From Bdellovibrionales bacterium (lineage in GTDB: Bacteria > Bdellovibrionota > Bdellovibrionia > Bdellovibrionales > UBA1609), in the NCBI GenBank assembly GCA_013216195.1, contig JABSOQ010000018.1:1-37599 (forward strand): a DNA stretch of 37,599 nucleotides, in the 5' to 3' direction. The first letter of the stretch is position 1. Each line of letters starts with the position of its first letter. The position numbers were made by a program, and so were the translations under genes. The notes beneath the pieces are model-generated. The model made no database searches. It worked only from the letters and a program-made list of their open reading frames with translations, and was not told the DNA's origin. Of the stretch, positions 1 to 34,443 are shown piece after piece.

Positions 1-907
1 CTTGTTTACAGGCCTCTCTGTCAGATTTCGTTCTCAGTGGTGGGTTCATTTTCCAATTGGCATTGAGACTGCCATCTTCTTTTTCAGGTATATCTTCATC
101 GCAAAGCAAAAGGTGATGAGGTGACACTTCAACAGTAACCCGGTGCCCCTCCGACTTTGCTTTTCTAACGGCCTCGATCGAGCGAGCTGTTGAAACATGA
201 AGAACATGATAATGCCCACCTGTTTGGGCGCTAAAATCGCAGCCACGCTCAACATGTACGGCCTCAGAGTTTGGATCTATACCTTTAATGCCATGCCTCT
301 CTGAAACTTCGCCTTTATGAATGGCTCCTCCAGCAGACAAACTCTCATCTTCAGAGTGATCCAAAACAGGCAGATTCACTTGGCTTCCCTTTTCAAGTGC
401 AAGCTTGAAGAGCTCATCGTTTTGAACCCCTTTGCCATCATCGGTAAGAGCTATGGCTCCAGCACTTTTCAACGCTTCGAAATCTGTTATCTTCTCGCCC
501 TTGAGACCGTAGGTTACCGCACCAGTCGGGTAAACCTTGCACAATCCGACTTCTTGTGACCGTTTCCACATACTTTCAACCACCTCTGGCTGATCCGCTG
601 TCGGGGCAGTGTTCGGCATCGAGATCACCGCAGTAAAGCCACCTTTTGCTGCGGCTTTACTTCCCGACTCTATATCTTCTTTGTACTCCATGCCAGGCTC
701 GCGAAAGTGAACCTGAGGATCAACCAAACCTGGTGAAAGAAACAATCCCTTTGCGTCCAAAACACTATCTGCGCTCTCGGCAATCTCGCCTGATGCAATC
801 TTAGAAATACGACCATTCTCAATCAAAAGGTTTACAGAAACCACCCCTTCCCCAGGCTTACCTAACAGTGAATTCAGTGTCTTCGCATTTTTTATCAATG
901 TTTTCAT
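1..907 (-). CDS. pyrC: Dihydroorotase, 5' part (gene runs off the left edge)
   Basis: The frame stays open from an ATG at 907 down to base 1, giving about 302 residues of the N-terminal part of a cyclic amidohydrolase. The family closes carbamoyl-aspartate to dihydroorotate in pyrimidine synthesis in the cytoplasm. Visible landmarks are the metal-site strand near residue 60 reading DPQVHFREPG, then GGFTAVISMPNTAPT near residue 90 and a later HYHVLHVST strand. The HFREPG and MPNT signatures fit dihydroorotase class I or its allantoinase-like relatives. The usual D-x-H-x-H-x-R has Gln in place of the first His, which would remove a classical zinc ligand. From memory similar Q-containing variants exist in other bacteria, so it may be a subfamily trait rather than inactivation. 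The C-terminal metal ligands are outside the window, so activity cannot be judged. Confidence 0.9.
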   Translation of the reverse strand, partial: MKTLIKNAKTLNSLLGKPGEGVVSVNLLIENGRISKIASGEIAESADSVLDAKGLFLSPGLVDPQVHFREPGMEYKEDIESGSKAAAKGGFTAVISMPNTAPTADQPEVVESMWKRSQEVGLCKVYPTGAVTYGLKGEKITDFEALKSAGAIALTDDGKGVQNDELFKLALEKGSQVNLPVLDHSEDESLSAGGAIHKGEVSERHGIKGIDPNSEAVHVERGCDFSAQTGGHYHVLHVSTARSIEAVRKAKSEGHRVTVEVSPHHLLLCDEDIPEKEDGSLNANWKMNPPLRTKSDREACKQ

Positions 908-1067
908 CAAAACTACCTTTCGCCTCGAGTGGTGGCATATTTCAGAAGCCAGGCCGAATATGTCGGTCAGGCCAAAGAAATAGCAGAGAAGCACGACCAA
1001 ATTCAACCGCTACTCAACAATTTTGAATGCCGAATCAGCTCAAAAAGTGTATCACTCAATCAAATGC

Positions 1068-1114
1068 AACTGAGACAGTTGATAGTTTCATACTAGTTGT
1101 GAAGAGTCTCAGTT
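1068..1114. promoter_or_regulatory. Inverted repeat upstream of GNAT gene
   Basis: AACTGAGAC at 1068-1076 is repeated as its exact reverse complement GTCTCAGTT at 1106-1114, with a 29-base spacer. It ends 26 bases before the ATG at 1141, so it could be an operator or a 5'-leader hairpin. The rest of the 908-1140 gap shows no convincing promoter pair. Function is inferred only from position. Confidence 0.3.
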
Positions 1115-1140
1115 CAGTACCCAAGAGATGAGGTAGAGGC

Positions 1141-1458
1141 ATGGCTGACGCAAGTGTAGAGCATTATGAGCACCAGCGCGGTGGAGAATGGGTTATTCAT
1201 AAAAGTGAAGATGAAGGCAAGCTCGCAAGAATGACCTATGTTAGGGTAAGTACAGATAAAATTGTGATTGATCACACGTTGGTACCAGAATCTTGGTCTG
1301 GCCAAGGGCTCGCTAAGGCATTACTTGAAACTGCAATTCAATACCTAAGAGACACCAACACCTTAACGGCTCCAACCTGCCCATACGCCAGAGCTCAACT
1401 CAAAAAACACAAAGAGTGGCATGACGTTCTTAGCCCAGAGGTCCGCCCGAAACAGTGA
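1141..1458 (+). CDS. GNAT-like N-acetyltransferase of the YjdJ/COG2388 type
   Basis: This 105-residue protein has the compact single-domain form of the COG2388 acetyltransferase-like family. The core reads IDHTLVPESWSGQGLAKALL at about residues 42-61, matching the acetyl-CoA-binding loop (Q/R-x-x-G-x-G/A), in which SGQGLAK is the pyrophosphate-binding part. It is followed by the family's TCPYARAQLKKH segment, which normally reads PLCPYA. The family is thought to bind acetyl-CoA, but its substrates are largely unknown. The ATG is preceded by GATGAGGTAGAGGC, a weak ribosome-binding site. The gene is convergent with the frameshifted acetyltransferase gene, 12 bases away, and there is no hairpin terminator between them. 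Confidence 0.82.
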   Translation: MADASVEHYEHQRGGEWVIHKSEDEGKLARMTYVRVSTDKIVIDHTLVPESWSGQGLAKALLETAIQYLRDTNTLTAPTCPYARAQLKKHKEWHDVLSPEVRPKQ

Positions 1459-1470
1459 TGGCCTTTGGCC

Positions 1471-2267
1471 TCAGCCTCTCCACCAACTCAGAGAGTAATT
1501 GATTTCAGATTTTGCAAAGCCCACAGATTCGTAAATACGGGCCGCATGGTAATCGGGATCGGCCTCCATAACGAGGGTCTCGACGCCAAACTCTCTCAAG
1601 GCTTGGCAGCCAGCTAGGTACACTATCGTACCGCAGATGCCTCTTCTTTTGTGATCTGGGTGAGTTCCAACATTTTGATACCTTGCAATCTCTTGCTCAA
1701 AATAGACGCCTAGATCACCAACAAGCTTTTCACCGAGAAAGGCTCCAAACCAAGCGCCTTTACCAGCTTTAGCCATAGCTCGGTATTGAGCCACTTGCTC
1801 TCTTTTGAAAGCCTCATAATAGTCATTGAAATACTTCGGGTCAGAACACAGAGTTTGTAGCTCAATCACCTGCTCCCACTCCGAGTCAGACTCAATTTTT
1901 TGAATTCAATTTCATCATTGTAATGAGCAGGCTTCTTTAACTCTTTCGCCGTTAAAACGACAGCTGAGTCTAATTCGAAACCAGCCTCTAAGAACTCTTG
2001 ATGCTCTCCAGGGTGATTCGCCTCTGTGTCCCATGTAAAAACGTAGTGATGGGGCTCCGTATAGAAAGAGAACTCTTGGTCGAACAGTGATCGCCACCGA
2101 TTTAGATCACCTTGTTCGGGGGCCCGGTCAAACACCATGTAGTTACCCCAATGATAACCAGGGTTAGAGGGCGTCTTAATCAGGGTGTAGCCACCCTTGT
2201 CTTCGATTAGACCTGAAAAGCCGGCAAAGATAAAATCCGTTCTGCGACCAAGTGAGCGCACTTTCAT
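1471..2267 (-). pseudogene. GNAT acetyltransferase gene split by a frameshift
   Basis: Two reading frames abut here. The upstream frame (2267 to 1866) gives an N-terminal half of 133 residues ending EFKKLSLTRSGSR. The downstream frame (to 1471) gives a GNAT C-terminal half with RYQNVGTHPDHKRRGIC and AARIYESVGF, the acetyl-CoA loop and the last GNAT strand. Read without its GTG start, the downstream frame extends upstream as ESDSEWEQVIELQ, a typical inter-domain linker in this family, directly after an A6 run (1901-1906 on the plus strand as T6). Adding one A would fuse the halves into a single protein of about 266 residues: EFKKIESDSEWEQVIE. So this is one gene with a single-base deletion in a homopolymer, either real or a sequencing error. 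Two translationally coupled genes (GTGA overlap at 1866-1869) are less likely. Confidence 0.75.
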
Positions 2268-2279
2268 AAAAATGCGCCC

Positions 2280-3632
2280 CTAAAGCGTGTAGGCCATCTC
2301 ATCGACTAAAATACCAGGTACCCTAGAGCCCCCGATTGCCCTCTGCTCATATGTACCGATCACTGGTTGAGTTTCAGCAAAACTCGTTAGGTCTACCAAC
2401 TTGTCACCAAAAATATTGTAAACGGTTTCATCAAAACGCAAATCTTTGATAGGCCCTTTGATCTCACCATTCTCGACCCAGAAGCATGCAAACCTTGTCA
2501 TACCTGTAACTCGTGCCTTGGGTAGATCGCTATAGTTCAAATAGTGCAGGTTAGAAACATACAAACCTGTGCCTAAAGCCGACAGAATATCAGCCCTATC
2601 CAGGCTACCGGTACCCATTACAGCCGAGCGAAGCCCCTCGCCTGCAGAGGCTCTGTTACCCTCTAGATCTGAGTATTCCTCTGCCGTCTTTGAACTCACA
2701 AGAAGAGTTTTTAACTCACCCTGATCAATCACTGACAATTTATCATCTGCAACTTCTCCGAACGAATTGAACTTAGGGCTCAGGCCCAGAGAGAAATCTT
2801 CAGTGATATTCATTTTTTGAGAGAACTTGCGGTTACCTTCGGCCAACTCCTTTAGTGAACTTCTGCCTGTTTTAAATGCTTGCGCACTCCAACCACCCCA
2901 GTTCAACAAACCCAACAGCTCGTTAACCGCAGCAGGGGCGAGGTAAGTCTTGTAGTTGCCTCTTTTCACTTCTTGGGTTGGAAGCCTCATATGAGACAGT
3001 TGATTAGTAGCATCACTAACGTTTGCCTCAAAAGCTGCTTGATCCCACTTTGTATCAGCATAACAAGCCTTCACGGCCTTCTGTTTAGATGAGTAAAGTG
3101 AATAATCAACATAGAAGCTCTCATTTGAGAACCAGTGCTTTTGTCCCAACGAGTTTTGATTACCACGGAAAACAATTCCGTCTGCCAGCAAACCGGCGGC
3201 ATCAACACTCTGAAGGGGCTTCACCATTTCGGGCAGTAACCGCTCGCCGTTTGATTCTGCAAGCAAAACATCCTCGTCTGAGCTCGCAAGATTCTTAGGC
3301 TCTACAATAAAGGGTGTCTCAGGCAGAATTGCTGCTTCTTTTCTAGCCGACTCAACCAAAGACATCAGTTTTCTGGTATCTTTGTCAACGTCACCACTTA
3401 ACACCATAGATTTCTTCAATTCGCAGTTGTTCACTATAAAGCTCATCCCCAGTGCCACTTGATCGACCCGAGACGGCTGTCTCACTTTCGATTGACTGAA
3501 TCGGCAATAAAGAGAGTCCTCTCCGCTTACCGACAAGGTCACTTGCTCATCGGACTTAAGCGCAGAGAAGAGGTTTTCACTTAACTCGGCAAAAGCCTGC
3601 TTTTTGTTTTTAACCCACTCTTGAGACGTCAT
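2280..3632 (-). CDS. tldE: TldD/PmbA family protein, TldE-like subunit
   Basis: This 450-residue protein is the partner of the TldD homologue directly upstream. Its reading frame begins at an ATG that overlaps the TldD stop as TAATG (3630-3634), so the two are translationally coupled. In characterised systems TldD and TldE/PmbA form a heterodimeric cytoplasmic protease that degrades flexible peptides, matures microcin B17 and degrades the CcdA antitoxin. TldE lacks the HExxxH motif and no such motif is visible here. The C-terminal half carries the family's patterns, including VTGMTRFACFWVENGEIKGP and DLRFDETVYNIFGDKL. No signal peptide is present. Calling it the non-catalytic subunit rests on gene order, overall resemblance and the missing zinc motif. 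Confidence 0.85.
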   Translation of the reverse strand: MTSQEWVKNKKQAFAELSENLFSALKSDEQVTLSVSGEDSLYCRFSQSKVRQPSRVDQVALGMSFIVNNCELKKSMVLSGDVDKDTRKLMSLVESARKEAAILPETPFIVEPKNLASSDEDVLLAESNGERLLPEMVKPLQSVDAAGLLADGIVFRGNQNSLGQKHWFSNESFYVDYSLYSSKQKAVKACYADTKWDQAAFEANVSDATNQLSHMRLPTQEVKRGNYKTYLAPAAVNELLGLLNWGGWSAQAFKTGRSSLKELAEGNRKFSQKMNITEDFSLGLSPKFNSFGEVADDKLSVIDQGELKTLLVSSKTAEEYSDLEGNRASAGEGLRSAVMGTGSLDRADILSALGTGLYVSNLHYLNYSDLPKARVTGMTRFACFWVENGEIKGPIKDLRFDETVYNIFGDKLVDLTSFAETQPVIGTYEQRAIGGSRVPGILVDEMAYTL

Positions 3633-5062
3633 TAGCGCGCTCCTCCAAAAACTTCGATATCAGAAAACAAACAGTGCGGGGTCGCATGACCAACTCGAAT
3701 CACTTGGTTCGGCTCAGCTTTGCCACAGAAAAAACTGCCCCAAACTTCAAAATTGTCACCATTGCCGACCATTTTTAAGTTGCTCCAAAATGGAGTGCAT
3801 ACACCTCTATAATTTGGATTTTTGACTGTCTTTGTGATCTCACCATTCTCAATAAGCTTTGCGTACTCACAGCCAAATTGAAACTTATTGCGGTAATCGT
3901 CTATCGACCAAGATTTATTGGTGTCCATGAAAACACCTTTTTCGACAGAAGAAATCATGTCAGACATACTTGATGTGCCAGCTTCAATGTTAATGTTTGC
4001 CATACGGTCTAGAGCCGGTCGGTTCCATGAAGTTGATCTGGCACAGGCAACACCAGGCACATTCGCCCGCGACTGGCTTTCAAGGCTACCTAGCCCTCTC
4101 AATAGCTTGCCGTCTTTAATCAAATACTCTTTTTCAGCTTTAACACCAGTGTCATCGAACATATAAGAAGCAAGCTCTCCCGATACTGTAGGATCGAAAG
4201 TCACGTTCAATAAATCAGAGCCATATTGAAGCTTGCCGAAGTCTTCGAGCCCGATAAAGCTCCAGCCGGCATAGTTTCTTTCATCACCCAAAATTCGGTC
4301 TAGCTCTAATGGGTGACCAATTGATTCATGAATCTGTAAATAGAGCTGGCTTGGTGCTAGCAAGAGATCTCGTGTGTCTTCAGGGCAATTTTCGGCATCC
4401 AAAAGCTCTAAGACCTGTTCGCCAATCCGCACAGATTCGGCAGTCATATGCTCTCGATCAAAAAATTCGTAGCCCGATTGACTAACATCCATACCGTTGG
4501 TGCGGGTCTGAACATCAGAACCCCTTTGAGCCGTGGCACTCAAATGTGAAAAATTATGGCTAAAGGTTTGATCAAACTCAGAACCGTTCGAACTGACATA
4601 GGTCATGTTGGTCACAGCATTTTGTGCGTAGGCCACTCGGCTTACAATTTCATCTGAAGTCTTCATAGCTTTTGTCGAATCGACCAACAGGGCAATCAAC
4701 TCTTGCATGCCCAATTGATCGAGGGTTTGCGAAGTTTTGCTGGCATAGCTGCCTACGGCTTTGGGTCTTTGATCTAAGCTGAACTTTGCCAAAGACCAAC
4801 CTTTTGAGAACTCAGCCAAAGCCATTGCCCTATTGTGAGCTCTAGCGATTCCGTCTTTCGAAACATCCGCCGTAGCTGAATAGTGAAACTGACCATCAAC
4901 GAGAACCTCTACCATTACCCCTTCTGAGATACCTTGGTTTACGGCTTCTACTCTTTCATCTCTTACTTGAAAAGAACGAGAGTCCTCTGCTACATGCCTC
5001 AGACCAACCCACTCAGCAGGTGAGTTTAAAGAGGCTAACATTTCTTTAAGTTCTGTTTTCAC
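3632..5062 (-). CDS. tldD: Metalloprotease TldD
   Basis: This 476-residue protein has the normal TldD length. The zinc-protease helix HESIGH is at residues 245-250, followed by PLELDRILGDERNYAG, the family's hallmark HExxxH region. Further family landmarks are FDDTGVKAEKEYLIKDGKL and the GCEYAKLIENGEITK segment near the C-terminus. TldD supplies the catalytic half of the TldD/TldE peptidase in the cytoplasm. The stop codon overlaps the ATG of the tldE-like gene, so the pair forms a coupled operon. A perfect 8-bp hairpin (5098-5120) lies about 36 bases upstream of its ATG, between it and the START-like gene. The stop codon is TAA, which argues against any reassignment of TAA in this organism. 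Confidence 0.93.
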   Translation of the reverse strand: MKTELKEMLASLNSPAEWVGLRHVAEDSRSFQVRDERVEAVNQGISEGVMVEVLVDGQFHYSATADVSKDGIARAHNRAMALAEFSKGWSLAKFSLDQRPKAVGSYASKTSQTLDQLGMQELIALLVDSTKAMKTSDEIVSRVAYAQNAVTNMTYVSSNGSEFDQTFSHNFSHLSATAQRGSDVQTRTNGMDVSQSGYEFFDREHMTAESVRIGEQVLELLDAENCPEDTRDLLLAPSQLYLQIHESIGHPLELDRILGDERNYAGWSFIGLEDFGKLQYGSDLLNVTFDPTVSGELASYMFDDTGVKAEKEYLIKDGKLLRGLGSLESQSRANVPGVACARSTSWNRPALDRMANINIEAGTSSMSDMISSVEKGVFMDTNKSWSIDDYRNKFQFGCEYAKLIENGEITKTVKNPNYRGVCTPFWSNLKMVGNGDNFEVWGSFFCGKAEPNQVIRVGHATPHCLFSDIEVFGGAR

Positions 5063-5097
5063 TAATCCCCCAAATTGTAAAAGCGAACAAAATGACC

Positions 5098-5120
5098 TAT
5101 CGCAGAAAGCTACTGCGATA
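5098..5120. other. Perfect 8-bp hairpin between START-like gene and tldD
   Basis: TATCGCAG and CTGCGATA flank a 7-base loop. On the minus strand the hairpin follows the START-like gene's stop by about 90 bases and precedes the tldD ATG by about 36 bases. It lacks a following T-run, so it could be a weak terminator or a leader structure. The remaining intergenic sequence 5121-5210 shows nothing recognisable. Confidence 0.35.
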
Positions 5121-5210
5121 CGGTCTGTAAGGCAAGCAAGTGGTCTTGAGTTTAAACTAACTGAAGATATTGGATGAAAAGCCCAGGTTGGCTTTGAAAT
5201 TCATAGTTGC

Positions 5211-5684
5211 TCAAATCGAAATGTACTTTTGCCATTCAGGGCTCTCTGCGACTTGTTTGATTACGCGGTTTCGTTCAATCAAAAACGACCTCATATGGCG
5301 AGTCACAAAGGGGTCAGCAATATAGCCCGCTGGCCCAAATGGGCATTGAAAGTCGAAAATTTCTCGCATTAGGGTTTGCCCGTCTTTTTCTATAAAAATG
5401 TGATCGTGGTTAAACCACTTAAAGATACCCTTAACTTGCGAATCACGAAACGAGTTGGGCCGATCAAACTGGGTGATTTTGACCCTGAGGTTCCATTTTA
5501 ATCCAAAATGCCACGCCTCCCAAAGAACCTCATCATTAAGTTTAACCAAGCCTGAGGTCACACCATCAATGGCTTTCTCTTTAGTGCCTGTGGCTGACCT
5601 CATAAGAAGATCAATGCTTCGACTCAAATCAAAGCAAACTTCTTTAGGTTGGTTAACGAGTGTCTCTAACTCAATACGGCCCAT
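5211..5684 (-). CDS. SRPBCC/START-like ligand-binding protein
   Basis: This is a 157-residue single-domain protein. It opens with RIELETLVNQPKEVCFDLSR, the first strand and helix typical of SRPBCC (cyclase/dehydrase, START-like) folds. An alternating strand pattern follows, with LKWNLRVKITQFDRPNSFRD and then a C-terminal helix starting around FVTRHMRSFLIERNRVI. Proteins of this type hold a hydrophobic ligand in an internal cavity; the ligand cannot be predicted here. There is no signal peptide, so it is probably cytoplasmic. It lies 30 bases downstream of the sbtA-like gene on the same strand with an AGGA ribosome site close to the ATG, so the two could be co-transcribed. Confidence 0.75.
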   Translation of the reverse strand: MGRIELETLVNQPKEVCFDLSRSIDLLMRSATGTKEKAIDGVTSGLVKLNDEVLWEAWHFGLKWNLRVKITQFDRPNSFRDSQVKGIFKWFNHDHIFIEKDGQTLMREIFDFQCPFGPAGYIADPFVTRHMRSFLIERNRVIKQVAESPEWQKYISI

Positions 5685-5714
5685 AGGTTCCTATCTGTCA
5701 AAGCGGTTTCACTA

Positions 5715-6662
5715 TTAGGCAGGCAGAGTTCGAGCCAGTAAGTAAAACAGGGGTATACCCAGAGTTATGTTAAACGGAAACGTGATCGCCAATGAGGCTG
5801 TTAGAGACAGAGTCGGGTTCGCCTCAGGCACAGCAATCTTCATCGCGCTTGGAGCTGCAATATAAGAAGCACTCGCAGACAATATCGCCAGCAAGAACTT
5901 GCCGCCAAGGCTTAGCCCAATCAGATGACCAGCACATAAACCAAGAACCCCTGAAATCACAGGCATAGTGAGTGCGAAAAAGAGTAAGAACAAACCAGTC
6001 TTTTTTAAATGACCCATTTGCTGAGAGGCAATAACTCCCATCTCGAGCAAGAACAATGCGAGGAACCCTTTAAACAGGTCAACAAACAAGGGGTCTAGCG
6101 GAGCCATCTTTTCCGGGCCAGCTAAGTAGCCAATCAACAAGCCTCCACCCAGAAGAAAAATACTTTTACCAAGTAAGATGTCTCTGGCTAACTTGTTCTT
6201 GTCGCCAACCGAAGACAGCCCACCCTTGGCCAAAAAGATACCAACACATATGGCCGGTATTTCCAAGATTACCACTAATGTCATCATGTAAGGTTCATAG
6301 CTCACATCTAATGACTCGAGAAAAGCCAAAGAGGTCGCAAAAGTCACGGCACTTACTGAACCGTAGTGACCAGCAATGGAGCCAGCATCGGCTTGATTTA
6401 CTTTTTTTGAAGCGCGTAAAATAAAGTAGGCTATGACGGGTATCAGAACGCCTACAGCCAGAGTTGCAAAAAGGGCAGGCACGAACTCTCCAAAATTGGT
6501 CTTTGAAAGCTGAACACCACCCTTGAACCCAATAGCAAGCAACAGATATAGACTTACAAAATCGTAAGAACTTCTTGGCAACCTCAAGTCAGATTTGACC
6601 AAGCCGGACACAAGCCCAACTATGAAACACAAAATCGTAGGGTCTAGAAGGTTCTGAATCAT
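5715..6662 (-). CDS. sbtA: SbtA-type sodium-dependent bicarbonate transporter
   Basis: This 315-residue integral membrane protein has about ten hydrophobic segments in two halves. It matches the SbtA/DUF897 family: LDPTILCFIVGLVSGL at the N-terminus, LYLLLAIGFKGGVQLSK, then IAGHYGSVSAVTFATSLAFL in the core, and a second half with SASASYIAAPSAMKIAVPEA. The GHYGSVSAVTF and SASASYIAAPSA segments correspond to the two inverted-repeat substrate/sodium sites. In cyanobacteria SbtA imports bicarbonate with sodium and is gated by the PII-like protein SbtB. No sbtB-like gene lies next to it here; the downstream neighbour is a START-like protein. In a heterotroph it may feed carboxylation reactions, but that is inference. 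A GAAAGAG ribosome site precedes the ATG. Confidence 0.85.
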   Translation of the reverse strand: MIQNLLDPTILCFIVGLVSGLVKSDLRLPRSSYDFVSLYLLLAIGFKGGVQLSKTNFGEFVPALFATLAVGVLIPVIAYFILRASKKVNQADAGSIAGHYGSVSAVTFATSLAFLESLDVSYEPYMMTLVVILEIPAICVGIFLAKGGLSSVGDKNKLARDILLGKSIFLLGGGLLIGYLAGPEKMAPLDPLFVDLFKGFLALFLLEMGVIASQQMGHLKKTGLFLLFFALTMPVISGVLGLCAGHLIGLSLGGKFLLAILSASASYIAAPSAMKIAVPEANPTLSLTASLAITFPFNITLGIPLFYLLARTLPA

Positions 6663-7583: not shown

Positions 7584-8276
7584 TCAAAGTAAATTAATGA
7601 CTTGGTCGAGCCGACTTAGAGTTTGGTATTTGTCAGTCGGCGGGTTTTCGACTTTCTCGTGATCCCAGGTCGTATGAAACGGCACATGAATAGCCATGCC
7701 GCCAAGCTCGAGAACAGGTAGTATGTCTGACTTCAATGAATTACCAATCATGAGAAAGGTGGCGGGATCAACTGACAGGTGGTCCAACAGCTCTTTGTAG
7801 TTTTTAGGCAGTTTGTTACTCAACACTTCGACATGATGAAAGAACTCACTCAAGCCAGACTTCTCTAGCTTTCTTTCTTGATCTAACAAATCGCCCTTGG
7901 TGAGTAGCAAGACCCGATGCTTTTTTGAGACAGCCTCGAGGGTTTCTCTTACCCCATCAAGCAGATCTACAGGTTTGTGCAGCATCTCTTTGCCAATTTC
8001 GAGAATGCGCCTGCTCACTTCAGGGTTCAAGTTCTGGTTAGAAAGCTCTAGGGCACACTCCATCATAGACAAAACAAAACCTTTTATGCCGTAGCCGTAA
8101 ATGGCAAGGTTCTGCATCTCGTACTTGATAAGTTCTTGTCTAGCCTTGTTCTCAGTTTCATAGCCGACCATAAGTGTGCAAAACTCATCTTCTGCATCAC
8201 GAAAGAAGGTCTCGTTTACCCACAAAGTGTCGTCAGCATCAAAACCTATGACTTCAATTTTACTATAGGACCTCAT
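7584..8276 (-). CDS. HAD-superfamily hydrolase
   Basis: This 230-residue protein is a haloacid dehalogenase-type phosphatase. Motif I is GFDADDTLW, with nucleophile D13 and acid D15. Motif II is VLLLTKGD near residue 125, with Thr in the usual Ser/Thr place. Motif III is a lysine in the KLPKNYKELL region. Motif IV is MIGNSLKSDI, with the metal-binding Asp. The all-helical cap lies between motifs I and II, as in C1 phosphatases such as phosphoglycolate phosphatase or YjjG. The substrate cannot be assigned. The gene starts at ATG 8276 with GAAGG just upstream and lies 19 bases after the DUF4920 gene. Confidence 0.88.
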   Translation of the reverse strand: MRSYSKIEVIGFDADDTLWVNETFFRDAEDEFCTLMVGYETENKARQELIKYEMQNLAIYGYGIKGFVLSMMECALELSNQNLNPEVSRRILEIGKEMLHKPVDLLDGVRETLEAVSKKHRVLLLTKGDLLDQERKLEKSGLSEFFHHVEVLSNKLPKNYKELLDHLSVDPATFLMIGNSLKSDILPVLELGGMAIHVPFHTTWDHEKVENPPTDKYQTLSRLDQVINLL

Positions 8277-28776: not shown

Positions 28777-29415
28777 CTAAGCCAATATACCGGCGAGAAA
28801 CTTCTCTGACATGCCTGCTTTTAGCTGCTGAACATCGCCACCTGTTTGCTCTAAAACAAATCCGATGCGGCCTTCAATAATCAAAGAAGACAAGCCGTGT
28901 ACGTGTGCCCAAATCAGCATTGATTGCTCAATCGGGTCTTGGTTCTTAAAAAAACCAATGTCTTGCATCTCTTCTACCATTGAGGTCAGCTGCTGGAAGC
29001 TCTGCATCGAGTTCTGCTTCAGGCTCGGGTACAAATCATGATCTGGTATCGCATCGGTGAACATCAAGCGGTAGTGGTCTGGGTTGTTAACAGCAAAATT
29101 CAGGTAAGCTTCACCCATGGCATGAAACTTCTCGTGCGGCCCTTTATCTTTGCTGATCTCTTTCGATTCTGCGAGAGCTTCAGTGAAAATCACAAAACCT
29201 TGCTCAGCAATGGCAGCCAACAAGACCTCTTTGGTCTCAAAATGCTTATAAGGAGCCCCCGGGCTCACCTTCAATGCCCTGGCCAATTCTCTAAAAGAGA
29301 AGTCAGACCGGCCCTTTGCCAAGAACTCAAGGCCCGTTCTGATACAGGCATCAGCGAGATTGCCATGATGGTAACTATCTGATTTTTTTGCATTTTTCTT
29401 ACTAACTCTCGTCAT
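28777..29415 (-). CDS. TetR-family regulator of the efflux operon
   Basis: The 212-residue protein has an N-terminal TetR helix-turn-helix reading YHHGNLADACIRTGLEFL, FSFRELARALKVSPGAPYKH and FETKEVLLAAIAEQGF. The C-terminal part fits the TetR_C WHG-type ligand-binding domain with MGEAYLNFAVNNPDHYRLMF. AAGGA lies just upstream of the ATG. It is divergent from the efflux operon across 121 bases that contain three tandem palindromes, so it is almost certainly its repressor and its own. The ligand is probably one of the exported compounds but cannot be predicted. The 87 bases between this gene and tmRNA contain no gene. Confidence 0.92.
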   Translation of the reverse strand: MTRVSKKNAKKSDSYHHGNLADACIRTGLEFLAKGRSDFSFRELARALKVSPGAPYKHFETKEVLLAAIAEQGFVIFTEALAESKEISKDKGPHEKFHAMGEAYLNFAVNNPDHYRLMFTDAIPDHDLYPSLKQNSMQSFQQLTSMVEEMQDIGFFKNQDPIEQSMLIWAHVHGLSSLIIEGRIGFVLEQTGGDVQQLKAGMSEKFLAGILA

Positions 29416-29448: not shown

Positions 29449-29508
29449 GTAAACAATGTTCATTTTAAAGTAGACAGCGTTTACATTAAAAGTATACACT
29501 GTTTACAT
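29449..29508. promoter_or_regulatory. Three tandem TetR operators
   Basis: Three related palindromes lie at 29449, 29470 and 29492: GTAAACAATGTTCAT, GTAGACAGCGTTTACAT and GTATACACTGTTTACAT. The consensus GTAnACA-N-TGTTTAC has arms matching at 5-6 of 7 positions. Spacing is 21 and 22 bases, two helical turns, so three dimers could bind one DNA face side by side. Confidence 0.75.
29471..29498 (+). promoter_or_regulatory. Promoter of the efflux operon
   Basis: TAGACA (29471-29476) and TATACA (29493-29498) are 16 bases apart. Operators 2 and 3 overlap the -35 and -10 elements exactly, so TetR binding would block RNA polymerase. The message then carries AAAAGGATG just before the ATG at 29537. Confidence 0.55.
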
Positions 29509-29536: not shown

Positions 29537-30145
29537 ATGAGGCAAATTCAAGAACATCTGATCATAGCCAGCGTAGCGCTAGGGCTATTGGTAGCAACCC
29601 AACAAGCTCTATCTATAGATAAAGCAACAGTGACCACAGAGCCCGCAACCGAGATCACCCTATCTGGCCCGATGACATTCTCGGCAAAAGTGCGCTCACT
29701 TGGTGGTGGGTGGTACCGAGCCGACCTTGAATTGCCAAAGTTCTTTGAGAACTCGGTACAAAACGGCCAAAAGGTAACACTTCGGCTGCCTTTCACTCAA
29801 AACCGCTCACTCGTATCGGCTTTAAAGACAGATAAAAGTCGCCAGCCTTATCTTAAGTTTCAGTTTCCGCACTCTGCCCTCGACGGCATGAGCCTCAAGG
29901 CCGACCTCATCATCTCGGCTACTAAGCTCTATAGCATTCCACTGAGTTCGGTTTTCTCACCAACAGAAGATCAGCAGTGGGTGTTTGTAGTTGAAGACCA
30001 AAAAGCCAAAAAGGTGAAAGTGCAGCCCTACAAGGTCAAAGAAGGTGCTGTTCTCGTTTTCGCATCACTAAACAAAGACTCTCTTATTATATCGTCGCGT
30101 CTGAATGAGATTTATGAAACCCAAGCTGTTGAGGTGAGAAAATAA
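29537..30145 (+). CDS. Short periplasmic adaptor (membrane-fusion protein) without hairpin
   Basis: The 202-residue protein has an N-terminal signal or anchor (HLIIASVALGLLVATQQA) and a body that matches only the beta-barrel and membrane-proximal domains of RND adaptors. The barrel-like part includes GWYRADLELPKFF and VQNGQKVTLRLPF. The membrane-proximal part has TKLYSIPLSSVFSPTEDQQW, VFVVEDQKAKKVKVQPYKV and then a strand EGAVLVFASL. Typical adaptors are 350-400 residues and include a lipoyl domain and a long coiled-coil hairpin that reaches TolC; no coiled coil or lipoyl motif is visible here. It precedes the RND-TolC fusion gene with a TAATG overlap, so the two are translationally coupled. 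It would link the pump to its fused outer-membrane part. Confidence 0.75.
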   Translation: MRQIQEHLIIASVALGLLVATQQALSIDKATVTTEPATEITLSGPMTFSAKVRSLGGGWYRADLELPKFFENSVQNGQKVTLRLPFTQNRSLVSALKTDKSRQPYLKFQFPHSALDGMSLKADLIISATKLYSIPLSSVFSPTEDQQWVFVVEDQKAKKVKVQPYKVKEGAVLVFASLNKDSLIISSRLNEIYETQAVEVRK

Positions 30146-33100
30146 TGGCTACTTTAATATTGAAATACAAAAGAATCTTCTTAAGCTTTTTCTTTCTAAT
30201 GACTCTCTCTGGCCTCGCCTCTTGGTTAACCATGCCAAAAGAAGAAGACCCACAACTCAAAGAGCGCTTTGGTTTCATTCAACTGATCTACCCCGGCGCC
30301 ACACCAAAAGAGATGGAGCGTCTTTTAGTTAACCCCTTGATCGAAGACCTCGCTGAAGTCACCGAGATCAAAAAAATTGATTCAACCATTCGGTCTGAGT
30401 TCTCGATTATTCAACTTGAGCTGACTGATGACACCAGTGACGACAACAAAATCAATGAGGCCTGGTCTGACATTCAAGACATTATGAATTCGGCGTCAAC
30501 TGACTTCCCGAGCGGAGCATTTACCCCCTCACTAGACCGAAAAGCCCTAGATCAAGACGCTATAGTCATTGCAATTGCAGGAGCTAAGCCCCTAGAGCTT
30601 AAAGCCATCGCGAAAGACCTCGAGAAAAAGATTCTCACAGTGGGCAGTGTCTCGAAGGTTCGCTTTATCGCCGACCCCGGCAGACAAGTTAGCATCACTC
30701 TTGATGAAGATAAGGTCAGACAGTTCGGGCTTGATCGCACACAAATTATCTCTCAAATCAGAAGGGCCAATGAGGTCTTGCCAGGTGGCTCTATCAAAGT
30801 TGGCTCACAGCAGCTCAACATCTCAACCAACTCGAGTTTTAAGAGCCTCGATGACTTGAGATCGCTTTCAATTGTTCAGCCCTCAGGCGTACCTCTCACT
30901 CTTGCTAGTATTGCAAGTATTGAAATGACTGAGTCACTCCCTCGCACAGAGGCCATGAGAGTCAACAGTCAAAGCTCAATTGGCCTAGGTGTCGTGCCTT
31001 CAAGAGAAATTGATCTGATAAAATTTGGCGAAGATGTGAAAGTGGCTCTTGGCGAGTTCCAGCAAACGGCTCCAGCAGATATCTCATTCGATGTGATCTC
31101 GTTTCAACCTGGCAATGTCTCAGACCGACTGAGTGACCTTGGCTTGTCTCTCTTGATCGGTATTTTAACAGTCTCTGGCATTCTCATCTTTTTGATGGGT
31201 TTTCGCATCGGCCTGATCACCTCAGCCCTAGTGCCCATCGTGAGCCTTGCTGCACTCGCCGTCTATTCATCTACAGGTGGGATGCTTCATCAAATCTCGA
31301 TTTCAGCATTTGTTCTGTCACTTGGCCTACTGGTCGACAACATCATTGTCGTCATCGAGTCGATTCAAGAGAAAATCGACTCTGGCATCAGCCCTGCTGA
31401 ATCAGCAACAGCCACTATTCAAGAGCTATCACTACCCTTGCTTGCAGCAACTGGCACAACGATCGCTTCTTTCTTGCCAATGCTTGGCTCTACTGGCTCA
31501 ACGGCCGACTTCACCAGAGCGATACCCACCATTGCTGTACTTACTCTGTCTGTGTCTTATCTGTTCAGCGTATTTGTGACACCAGCACTTGGCGGCATGC
31601 TACTTCGCAAAAGCAAAACCAAAGCAGCAGAGCCATTGGGCCGAATCGCATCTAAAATGGCCGAGTTTGTAGTCAAACGCCCTTGTACAATCATCGTAGG
31701 CTCAATGGTGGCCCTAGTGCTCTCGGGCGCAACTTCTGGCTTGGTTAAGAATAAGTTCTTTCCGAACGCAGACCGCAAACAACTGGTGCTAGAAGTTCGA
31801 TTTTCAGAGGGGACTCACTTTGAATACACAAACAAACAATTGGCTAGGCTAGAAAGAAAGGTCGAGAATCTCGAAGCGGTTAATAGGGTGTCTTCTTTTA
31901 TTGGCAGAAGCACCCCTCGCTTCTTTTACAACTTGAACCGAACTCCAAATGCTCCGTTTGTAGGCCAGCTCATCGTAGAGTATGAAAGCTTTGATGCCGC
32001 TCGCGCAGGGCTCTCTAAGCTAGAAAAGCTCGGTGAAGCCACCTTGCCTAATGCCTTTGTTATTGCCAGGCCCCTCGAGCAAGGCCCACCAACCCTGGCA
32101 CCAGTTGAGATCCAAATTGTCTCGTCTTCATATAAAGATGTGGTAGAGGAGCATGAGAAGGTGCTTCAAGCCTTGTCTGAGACTGAGGGCACTCGAAAAG
32201 TCAGATCTGACATCGGTGTAGGCTTGGCTAAGTACAACCTTATCACTAACGACTTCAACGCCAGTCAGTACTTTCTCTCAAGATCAGATCTCGCATCAAC
32301 TTCACTATCTAAAACAAGAGGCTTGCCCGTCTCAAGATATGAAGCTGAAGATGACAACGACATCAACATCGTGGTCAGAGGCGAGTCAGGTCAATACTCA
32401 TCACCTGAAGACATCAAGAGCACCTTTGTCGGTCAAACTGAGACCGCCTCGGTGAATATCGAGGACTTCGCAACACTTCAAATTGCGTTTGAACCTTCTG
32501 TAATCAGAAAAAGTAAAAATCAGTACATCATTCGGGTCTTATCAGAGATTGAGGCTGGTTACGACTTCTCTGACATTCTCGTGCCCGCGCTGGCTAAAAT
32601 TGATGACCAGGTCACAAACCCCAACGTCGAAATAAAGCTCGGCGGCGCCGCCGAAGAGAGCGACAGTGCCAACCAAGCCATCGTAAAGGTTATGCCAATT
32701 GGGATCATGCTCTTGCTGATCTCTCTGCTGGTTCAGTTCAACTCATTCAAAAAAGTAACTATTATTTTGGTGACAATACCTTTGATTTTCGCAGGGGTTT
32801 TTCCGGCTCTGTTTCTTGCAGGGCAACCTTTTAGCTTTTTCTCACTACTCGGAACCCTTGCCTTAATTGGTATTGTCGTCAACACCGGCATTTTACTGGT
32901 TGACCGAATTGACTCGAACCTGGCCTCGGGCCTTTCTTTAACTGATGCCATCGAAGAGGCAATTGTGAGAAGAATTCGGCCAATCTTACTAACGACCATT
33001 ACGACAATTGCTGGATTGATGCCACTTGCTCTCACAAGCGCCACACTCTGGCCACCTTTCGCATGGGCAATGATCGGAGGGCTTTTGTCTTCAACCCTAC

Positions 33101-34443
33101 TCGCTCTTGTTGTCGTACCGAGCTTGTACTTTGTTCTCTATAGAGAAAAGAAAGCTGCCACTAAGCCAGTTCCGGTCGTTGCACCTGCGACCGTAGCTCT
33201 ATTGTTGGGGTTGTTCATGGCCACTCCCCGTCAGTCGAGAGCCGAACAACTCGACATTTTGACTGTCGTCAAGATGGCTGAGAACCGACCACTTTATAAG
33301 TCTTCGGTAGCCGAACTCGAGTCGCTTAAGAAACAGCTATCGACCCAAAGAGGTGCTGCTTATCTGCCCAAAGTCGGAGCTCAGTTTCAGCGCTTTTACC
33401 GAGACCGCCAGTTTGATCTCGAAACCCCAGTTGGCACATTTGCTCTTACTGAGCAATGGAACACGCAAGCTAGCGTTGTCGCCACTCAACCAATTTTAGA
33501 TTTGCAAAACATGAACTACAAGATCGACGAGCTCAAATTGCAAGTGAAAGCAAAAAAGAACTCAAACGATCGCCTCAAAAAAGAAATCAAAGCCATGGCC
33601 GCCAAGGTCTATCTTGATATTCTGATCTTAGATCAAGCTTACCAAACGTCGAAAGAGCTCAATGCAAACCTCATGAACAGACGAAAAGAGATCTTGCGTC
33701 TCTATGATCTCGGAAGAGTTTCTAGCTTAGACAAACAAAAGATTGAAATCGCAATCGATGAGTCTGATCAGGGTCTTTTTGCGATCACAGAACAGCGAAA
33801 AGTGCTGTCTACCCAGCTGGGTCAATTGATCGGAAGCGATAAGCCCGTTGAAGTCACTAAAGACTCATTCAACCTTTTTAAGTCTGCGGTTTCAAACCAA
33901 CCCGTTGAAGCAAGTAGGCTTGATCTTCGAGCCCTCGAGAATACCAGGCAGGCTAGTGAAACCGCAATAAAAGGGCTTAGGTCCTCATATCTGCCAACAA
34001 TTGCTCTGCAGGGCCGATACCTTTACGACAACCCTGGGCAAGTGGTTCAAAATGAGTGGTATGAAGTTGGTATCATTGCCAAATGGGAGATATTTTCTGG
34101 GAACACAAGACATTCGCAAATCAAAGCCAATCAGGCCAATCTTCGCAAAATCACTCAACAGCAACGAGAGGCAGAGCTCAATATAGACCTCGAGCAAAAA
34201 AAGAATGAGGCCGACTTTAACACCCTCAACAGAGAAAAATCTCTGAGAGACAGATCATTTGCTAGGGCTAAGAGTGTCGTCAAAGATGAACGAAAACGGT
34301 ACCGATCTGGCAAGACGACATTGAATGACCTTATCGATGCAGAAGTTTTGTTAACCCAAACAAAAGGTCGATTGGCCACTTATGAATATGAGGTTCTAAA
34401 GTCACAAATTGAGCTCAAGATTTCAAAGGGAGGTGACATCTAA
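30145..34443 (+). CDS. RND efflux permease fused to a TolC-type outer-membrane factor
   Basis: This 1432-residue protein joins two normally separate proteins in one frame. Residues 1 to about 1005 are an RND permease: YPGATPKEMERLLVNPLIED in the first porter loop, the fourth membrane helix with LGLLVDNIIVVIES (residues 393-406, D398 in the proton relay), and the tenth with GIVVNTGILLVD (residue 909 on). Residues about 1011-1033 are hydrophobic (VVAPATVALLLGLF) and end in MATPRQSRA before EQ, an excellent signal peptidase I site after A1033. Residues 1034-1432 have the TolC fold: LPKVGAQFQRFYRDRQF, a helical repeat with KAMAAKVYLDILILDQAY, then SYLPTIALQGRYLYDNPG and the final SGKTTLNDLIDAEVLL helix. 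No in-frame start codon suited to a separate TolC gene precedes the hydrophobic segment. Either the protein is a permanent fusion or the polypeptide is cut into pump and channel. Confidence 0.93.
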   Translation: MATLILKYKRIFLSFFFLMTLSGLASWLTMPKEEDPQLKERFGFIQLIYPGATPKEMERLLVNPLIEDLAEVTEIKKIDSTIRSEFSIIQLELTDDTSDDNKINEAWSDIQDIMNSASTDFPSGAFTPSLDRKALDQDAIVIAIAGAKPLELKAIAKDLEKKILTVGSVSKVRFIADPGRQVSITLDEDKVRQFGLDRTQIISQIRRANEVLPGGSIKVGSQQLNISTNSSFKSLDDLRSLSIVQPSGVPLTLASIASIEMTESLPRTEAMRVNSQSSIGLGVVPSREIDLIKFGEDVKVALGEFQQTAPADISFDVISFQPGNVSDRLSDLGLSLLIGILTVSGILIFLMGFRIGLITSALVPIVSLAALAVYSSTGGMLHQISISAFVLSLGLLVDNIIVVIESIQEKIDSGISPAESATATIQELSLPLLAATGTTIASFLPMLGSTGSTADFTRAIPTIAVLTLSVSYLFSVFVTPALGGMLLRKSKTKAAEPLGRIASKMAEFVVKRPCTIIVGSMVALVLSGATSGLVKNKFFPNADRKQLVLEVRFSEGTHFEYTNKQLARLERKVENLEAVNRVSSFIGRSTPRFFYNLNRTPNAPFVGQLIVEYESFDAARAGLSKLEKLGEATLPNAFVIARPLEQGPPTLAPVEIQIVSSSYKDVVEEHEKVLQALSETEGTRKVRSDIGVGLAKYNLITNDFNASQYFLSRSDLASTSLSKTRGLPVSRYEAEDDNDINIVVRGESGQYSSPEDIKSTFVGQTETASVNIEDFATLQIAFEPSVIRKSKNQYIIRVLSEIEAGYDFSDILVPALAKIDDQVTNPNVEIKLGGAAEESDSANQAIVKVMPIGIMLLLISLLVQFNSFKKVTIILVTIPLIFAGVFPALFLAGQPFSFFSLLGTLALIGIVVNTGILLVDRIDSNLASGLSLTDAIEEAIVRRIRPILLTTITTIAGLMPLALTSATLWPPFAWAMIGGLLSSTLLALVVVPSLYFVLYREKKAATKPVPVVAPATVALLLGLFMATPRQSRAEQLDILTVVKMAENRPLYKSSVAELESLKKQLSTQRGAAYLPKVGAQFQRFYRDRQFDLETPVGTFALTEQWNTQASVVATQPILDLQNMNYKIDELKLQVKAKKNSNDRLKKEIKAMAAKVYLDILILDQAYQTSKELNANLMNRRKEILRLYDLGRVSSLDKQKIEIAIDESDQGLFAITEQRKVLSTQLGQLIGSDKPVEVTKDSFNLFKSAVSNQPVEASRLDLRALENTRQASETAIKGLRSSYLPTIALQGRYLYDNPGQVVQNEWYEVGIIAKWEIFSGNTRHSQIKANQANLRKITQQQREAELNIDLEQKKNEADFNTLNREKSLRDRSFARAKSVVKDERKRYRSGKTTLNDLIDAEVLLTQTKGRLATYEYEVLKSQIELKISKGGDI

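Follow-up and report, generated by a model that had tools for sequence, protein, structure and literature searches.

A candidate RND efflux polyprotein with an internal signal-peptide-like junction and a reduced adaptor in a Bdellovibrionales genome

Fusions in which an RND permease is followed by an outer-membrane factor (OMF) in one protein are known from CusA/CzcA-type pumps of Bacteroidetes, with an RND part of the metal type. In the FbcH cytochrome b/c1 polyprotein of Bradyrhizobium, signal peptidase reportedly cuts an internal signal that follows an inner-membrane protein, releasing a periplasmic subunit. In the tip-to-tip model of RND pumps, the adaptor hairpin bridges pump and channel, a model with which BesA, the hairpinless adaptor of Borrelia BesABC that keeps its lipoyl domain (PMC3807786), has been flagged as incompatible (PMC3807786, PMC4446572). 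RND permeases, OMFs, signal-peptidase-cut polyproteins (FbcH) and hairpinless adaptors (BesA, PMC3807786) are each already known separately. In the open-access literature we found neither an account of a naturally occurring RND-OMF polyprotein that contains an internal signal peptide nor one of an adaptor reduced below BesA beside such a polyprotein.

The locus described here was found in a 37,599-nucleotide stretch of a Bdellovibrionales genome (contig JABSOQ010000018.1), hereafter the window. The gene at 30145-34443 on the plus strand formed a single frame of 1432 aa with no internal stop. We postulate, with odds of roughly three in four, that it encodes an RND efflux polyprotein that is internally re-exported, cut by signal peptidase I into RND and OMF subunits, and repressed by TetR. 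The features of the locus were:

28777..29415, minus strand: TetR-family regulator, divergent from the operon, probable repressor (TetR_N 3.4e-7, TetR_C_33 2.7e-15)
29449-29463, 29470-29484 and 29492-29506, tetR/adaptor intergenic region: three near-palindromic 15-mers, GTAAACAATGTTCAT, GTAGACAGCGTTTAC and GTATACACTGTTTAC
29537..30145, plus strand: reduced periplasmic adaptor, 202 aa, with signal peptide, membrane-proximal and beta-barrel domains (TIGR01730, AF2)
30145..33138, plus strand: RND permease part, residues 1-998 (Pfam ACR_tran 2e-129; TriC 6vej, MexK)
33142..33168, plus strand: basic n-region REKKAATKP, residues 1000-1008, predicted cytoplasmic (net charge +3)
33166..33228, plus strand: hydrophobic core, uncharged residues 1008-1028, signal-peptide h-region or 13th membrane segment
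33235..33243, plus strand: predicted signal peptidase I site SRA/E, between residues 1033 and 1034 ((-3,-1) rule obeyed)
33244..34440, plus strand: TolC/OprM-type outer-membrane factor, residues 1034-1432, 399 aa (OEP, TolC models; AF2)

The fusion of an RND permease with an outer-membrane factor, proposed in an earlier sequence-only reading, was borne out, as ACR_tran (residues 10-998) and TolC models (1035-1430; NCBIfam TIGR01844/TIGR01845) matched within one open frame. The ACR_tran match was full-length (profile positions 10-1020 of 1021, E 2e-129) and places the first part among RND permeases of the HAE-1/AcrB type. Its best sequence matches and nearest solved relatives were the HAE-1-type permeases TriC and MexK (PDB 6vej, 9xwg; E 5e-104 for TriC 6vej and 9e-96 for MexK), a similarity that makes organic compounds more probable substrates than metals. 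The C-terminal part was matched twice by Pfam OEP (best at 1256-1427); modelled by AF2 from the proposed cleavage site onward (399 residues), it had a pLDDT of 90 and a complete TolC topology. Its four barrel strands in two pairs and its long helices H87-155 (69 residues) and H288-354 (67 residues) identify a TolC/OprM-type factor, and the model aligned to solved channels with TM 0.83 (TolC, 1ek9) and 0.80 (OprM, 1wp1). Whereas TriC/MexK and OprM/TolC are separate proteins, and BesB and BesC are likewise described as separate components, the parts were here joined in one frame via an internal signal-like segment. This order of an inner-membrane protein and an internal signal sequence is shared with FbcH, which differs in belonging to a respiratory complex instead of an efflux pump and in that the inner membrane still anchors its part after release.

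The fusion is not private to the window genome and was found in at least five phyla. A database search for the same domain order returned fused homologues, so two separate genes are not universal among relatives. Three fused genes in the window's phylum were recovered with a junction and OMF profile. A scan of 84,980 species genomes with the resulting alignment gave 31 loci, 20 of which had RND and OMF in a single frame, counting one with the RND part broken upstream (L020) and one starting at a contig end (L038). In surveys of two phyla, fused frames occurred in 7 of 369 genomes of the window's phylum and in 9 of 296 genomes of the one to which a Leptospiraceae genome belongs, where a contig end truncated one frame. 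Across all searches, the genomes with fused genes were labelled as Bacteriovoracaceae, Oligoflexia, Bdellovibrionaceae, Leptospiraceae, Acidobacteriota, Thermoanaerobaculia, Holophagae and Myxococcales. By tblastn of plasmids, the same domain order was also found in two species of Persicobacter (Bacteroidota), one of them annotated 'efflux RND transporter permease subunit'; these fusions were retrieved as relatives of the window's TriC/AcrB-type protein. Persicobacter WP_338399011 (plasmid pPP3) matched the window's domain order over 97% of its length and had a signal-like junction, but it shared 25% identity, had a full-length adaptor and fell outside the window's clade. A strict search of 59 relatives gave the window as the sole match, and single-protein scans of genome contigs and viral contigs found nothing; it took alignment-based searches to bring out the homologues. 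The loci L036 ('Caldithrix sp.' MAG) and L037 ('Turneriella parva') were near-identical, and the L036 genome belonged to the same phylum as a Leptospiraceae genome, so that the Caldithrix label looks like a misnaming. At L020, a frame change at 7792-7999 split the RND part, possibly marking a pseudogene or a sequencing error, with the OMF and signal-like junction intact.

In the unfused relatives L031, L040 and L043, the OMF gene encoded a signal peptide of its own and overlapped or abutted the end of the RND gene, and in L031 the OMF start lay at the RND stop. Loss of a stop or a small frameshift in such a pair would give exactly the observed junction, judging from these sequences. For the same reason one indel in an assembly could join two neighbouring genes, yet such an error is a highly improbable source of the window gene, as some 25 independent genomes had fusions of similar length, two of them on Persicobacter plasmids that were deposited as complete sequences. 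An artefact was excluded for the family, in which the same frame and similar part lengths recurred in independent assemblies. In a tree of the RND parts, from which the paralogue L004 (branch length 10) was omitted, fused and separate forms were clustered without forming one clade, with 5 changes. A single origin of the sampled fusions was rejected (AU test, p 3e-42), with the long Persicobacter branches as a caveat. Subject to those branches, repeated fusion or fission appears to have happened.

RND permeases end in the cytoplasm. An OMF attached to that end must therefore cross the membrane again, and a hydrophobic segment preceded by positive charges can bring this about. The window junction read Y999-REKKAATKPVPVVAPAT-VALLLGLFMATPRQSRA1033/E1034, and the P-R-Q-S-R-A that had been noticed after the hydrophobic stretch was present at residues 1028-1033. 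Its earlier description as a canonical signal peptidase I site was too strong: although Ser at -3 and Ala at -1 fit the rule, an Arg is uncommon at -2 and at -5, the weight-matrix score was weak, and 24% of ordinary RND helices scored equally. Taken alone, the window's own site would not be convincing. We therefore compared junctions across the family.

In total, 27 fused junctions were gathered from Bdellovibrionota, Spirochaetota, Acidobacteriota, Myxococcota and the two Persicobacter plasmids. For 23 fused proteins, the hydrophobic core after TM12 was located and cleavage sites were scored in a fixed window behind it, using a weight matrix derived from 21 E. coli signal peptides. As controls, we took 203 other hydrophobic segments from these RND parts and searched them over an equal range. 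The n-region carried a positive net charge in 22 of the 23 homologues and zero in the remaining one. Uncharged runs were shorter at junctions (median 16) than in RND helices (median 20; p 1e-5, 23 versus 203). The best site obeyed the (-3,-1) rule in 18/23 junctions versus 48/203 control helices (Fisher p 4e-7), leaving five junctions in which it was broken, and cleavage-site scores were higher at junctions than in controls (Mann-Whitney p 8e-11, 23 versus 203), all of these statistics coming from homologues that are not phylogenetically independent. Typical sites were ALMA/E, PLMA/S, AYA/E, VLA/Q, PASA/Q, PAQA/S and VFA/E, though automatic scores were poor at two of four additional spirochaete junctions. 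Around TM12, mean pairwise identity was 64%, compared with 25% across the OMF and 20% at the junction; the junction has thus drifted yet kept its signal character, which argues against mere recent inheritance and suggests that it was selected for its function and is no mere remnant. By this family evidence, the segment probably behaves as a signal peptide and not as a linker helix. Conserved n-, h- and c-regions with a (-3,-1) site, as expected of a polyprotein processed by signal peptidase, were thus found in the homologues, with the window protein weak on its own. The earlier idea that the segment re-threads the TolC part into the periplasm is strongly supported by this conservation together with the topology.

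Alternatively, the segment could be translocated and left uncut, so that a 13th TM helix tethers the TolC part to the RND trimer and takes the place of the adaptor hairpin. The window's uncharged run of 21 residues, the longest of the set and long enough for a membrane anchor, would suit such an arrangement, as would its weak cleavage site and an adaptor without the parts that normally bind the channel. The AF2 model speaks for a cut. The first OMF helix began 4 residues past the proposed site, and the N-terminal helices (5-40) measured ~54 Å against ~104 Å for the long helix 87-155, so that the periplasmic tip of the channel lay ~50 Å below the OMF N-terminus. Below the tip, in turn, comes the RND periplasmic domain. 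With this offset and no spare linker, an uncut chain could not span the distance from the inner membrane to the outer-membrane channel. Together with the (-3,-1) pattern retained in homologues and the full adaptors kept in many fused relatives, this makes an uncut tether unlikely, and removal of the segment by signal peptidase I is well supported as a prediction from the site pattern and the modelled geometry. The window genome had four signal peptidase I (S26) matches, three of them adjacent (G000:C13:47177-49552) and the fourth elsewhere.

If part of the OMF were instead made separately from an internal start, the hydrophobic core would be an ordinary N-terminal signal peptide. In-frame ATG codons were present at 11 of 22 loci (for example MPKKILKV... 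in L020), but none was conserved, and a Shine-Dalgarno-like tetramer preceded an in-frame start at only 3 of 22 loci and not in the window. There the sole in-frame start that would yield a plausible signal peptide was a TTG, which lay 40 codons ahead of the site and lacked a Shine-Dalgarno tetramer, consistent with the earlier statement that no suitable OMF start exists. Even if such a start were used, the fused chain would still be produced and need processing. We regard this as less probable than the tether, and improbable overall.

Under the polyprotein reading that we favour, the re-targeting, cleavage, assembly and regulation that we infer would proceed as follows. Ribosomes would insert the RND part, whose 12 helices leave the C-terminus on the cytoplasmic side. 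The basic stretch and hydrophobic core would next serve as a second signal sequence within the chain, restarting Sec export and carrying the TolC-like part into the periplasm. A cut by signal peptidase I after Ala1033 would yield a pump of ~111 kDa and a channel of ~44 kDa in a 1:1 ratio. Known RND-OMF assemblies have a 3:3 stoichiometry, which such products would match. The channel would insert into the outer membrane, trimerise and dock with the RND trimer, aided by the reduced adaptor from the preceding overlapping gene, with the operon repressed by the divergent TetR. Provided that the internal signal works and is cleaved, pump and channel would arise from one precursor that fixes both their ratio and their place of synthesis; for efflux pumps we found no description of a ratio fixed in this way.

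The adaptor gene overlapped the start of the fused gene by a single base (TAATG). The adaptor matched RND_mfp (TIGR01730) only at positions 217-321 of 322, its C-terminal third, and its 23.2 bits fell short of the curated cut-off of 94.9 for RND periplasmic adaptors. AF2 modelled it as all-beta after the signal peptide (pLDDT 82), with neither alpha-hairpin nor lipoyl domain, and its best fold match was BesA (E 4e-9). As its fold resembles the barrel and membrane-proximal domains of adaptors, it is a reduced relative of them. The absence of an alpha-hairpin is shared with BesA, which differs by its lipoyl domain (PMC3807786); as the lipoyl domain is missing too, the window adaptor falls outside the BesA type, which the 268-aa adaptors of L036/L037 fit better.

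Twelve fused proteins formed one clade in the RND-part tree (support 96/98), within which adaptors differed. Those of L036 and L037 had 268-269 aa and a lipoyl-like stretch without a hairpin, and those of the window, L016/L019 and L018/L022 had 197-208 aa and neither. At L023, L030, L035, L026, L029 and L032, no adaptor lay beside the fused gene; L038, whose upstream region ends with the contig, was left out of the count. Adaptor-less fused genes at L023 (6100-10497), L030 (6106-10395), L026, L029, L032 and L069 were mostly TetR-adjacent, and L035 appeared similar. Two additional spirochaete loci had seemingly reduced adaptors of 226 and 260 aa (with a weak RND_mfp match in the second only), and one had no adaptor. 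As other adaptor-like genes occurred elsewhere in all genomes tested, an adaptor acting in trans is possible at adaptor-less loci.

Outside the clade, fused relatives whose upstream region was present had adaptors of 343-398 aa; with full adaptors in many fused relatives, fusion does not require loss of the hairpin. In the window's own family, L074 of genome G009 (94-5726) had unfused, overlapping genes in the order TetR-OMF-adaptor-RND, with a short, hairpinless adaptor of 234 aa. The pairing of the fusion with a hairpinless adaptor, put forward in the sequence-only reading, thus stands as far as the hairpin loss is concerned, but this loss is neither required by the fusion nor confined to it. 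Hairpin loss as a strict consequence of fusion was rejected, given the unfused hairpinless adaptor of G009 and BesA in an unfused pump; fusion and adaptor loss are associated, but without a strict link. Tentatively, adaptors may have been pared stepwise within the one clade, from BesA-like to barrel plus membrane-proximal part to none, with RND and OMF trimers docking directly in what would be nearly a one-gene pump, though we hold this as a possibility rather than an expectation. This range of adaptors, from reduced to missing, is relevant to the open question of adaptor bridging in the tip-to-tip model, and the loci without hairpin, lipoyl domain or neighbouring adaptor are candidate pumps in which to test direct docking of pump and channel.

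The three near-palindromic 15-mers between the tetR and adaptor genes spanned 29449..29506 with a spacing of 21-22 bp and form a probable TetR operator array. Together with the divergent TetR gene, they suggest that the operon is under substrate-controlled repression. TetR-like genes flanked the fused gene in most of the related loci read, among them L016, L018, L017, L023 and L030, with further cases at L026, L032, L070 and L071.
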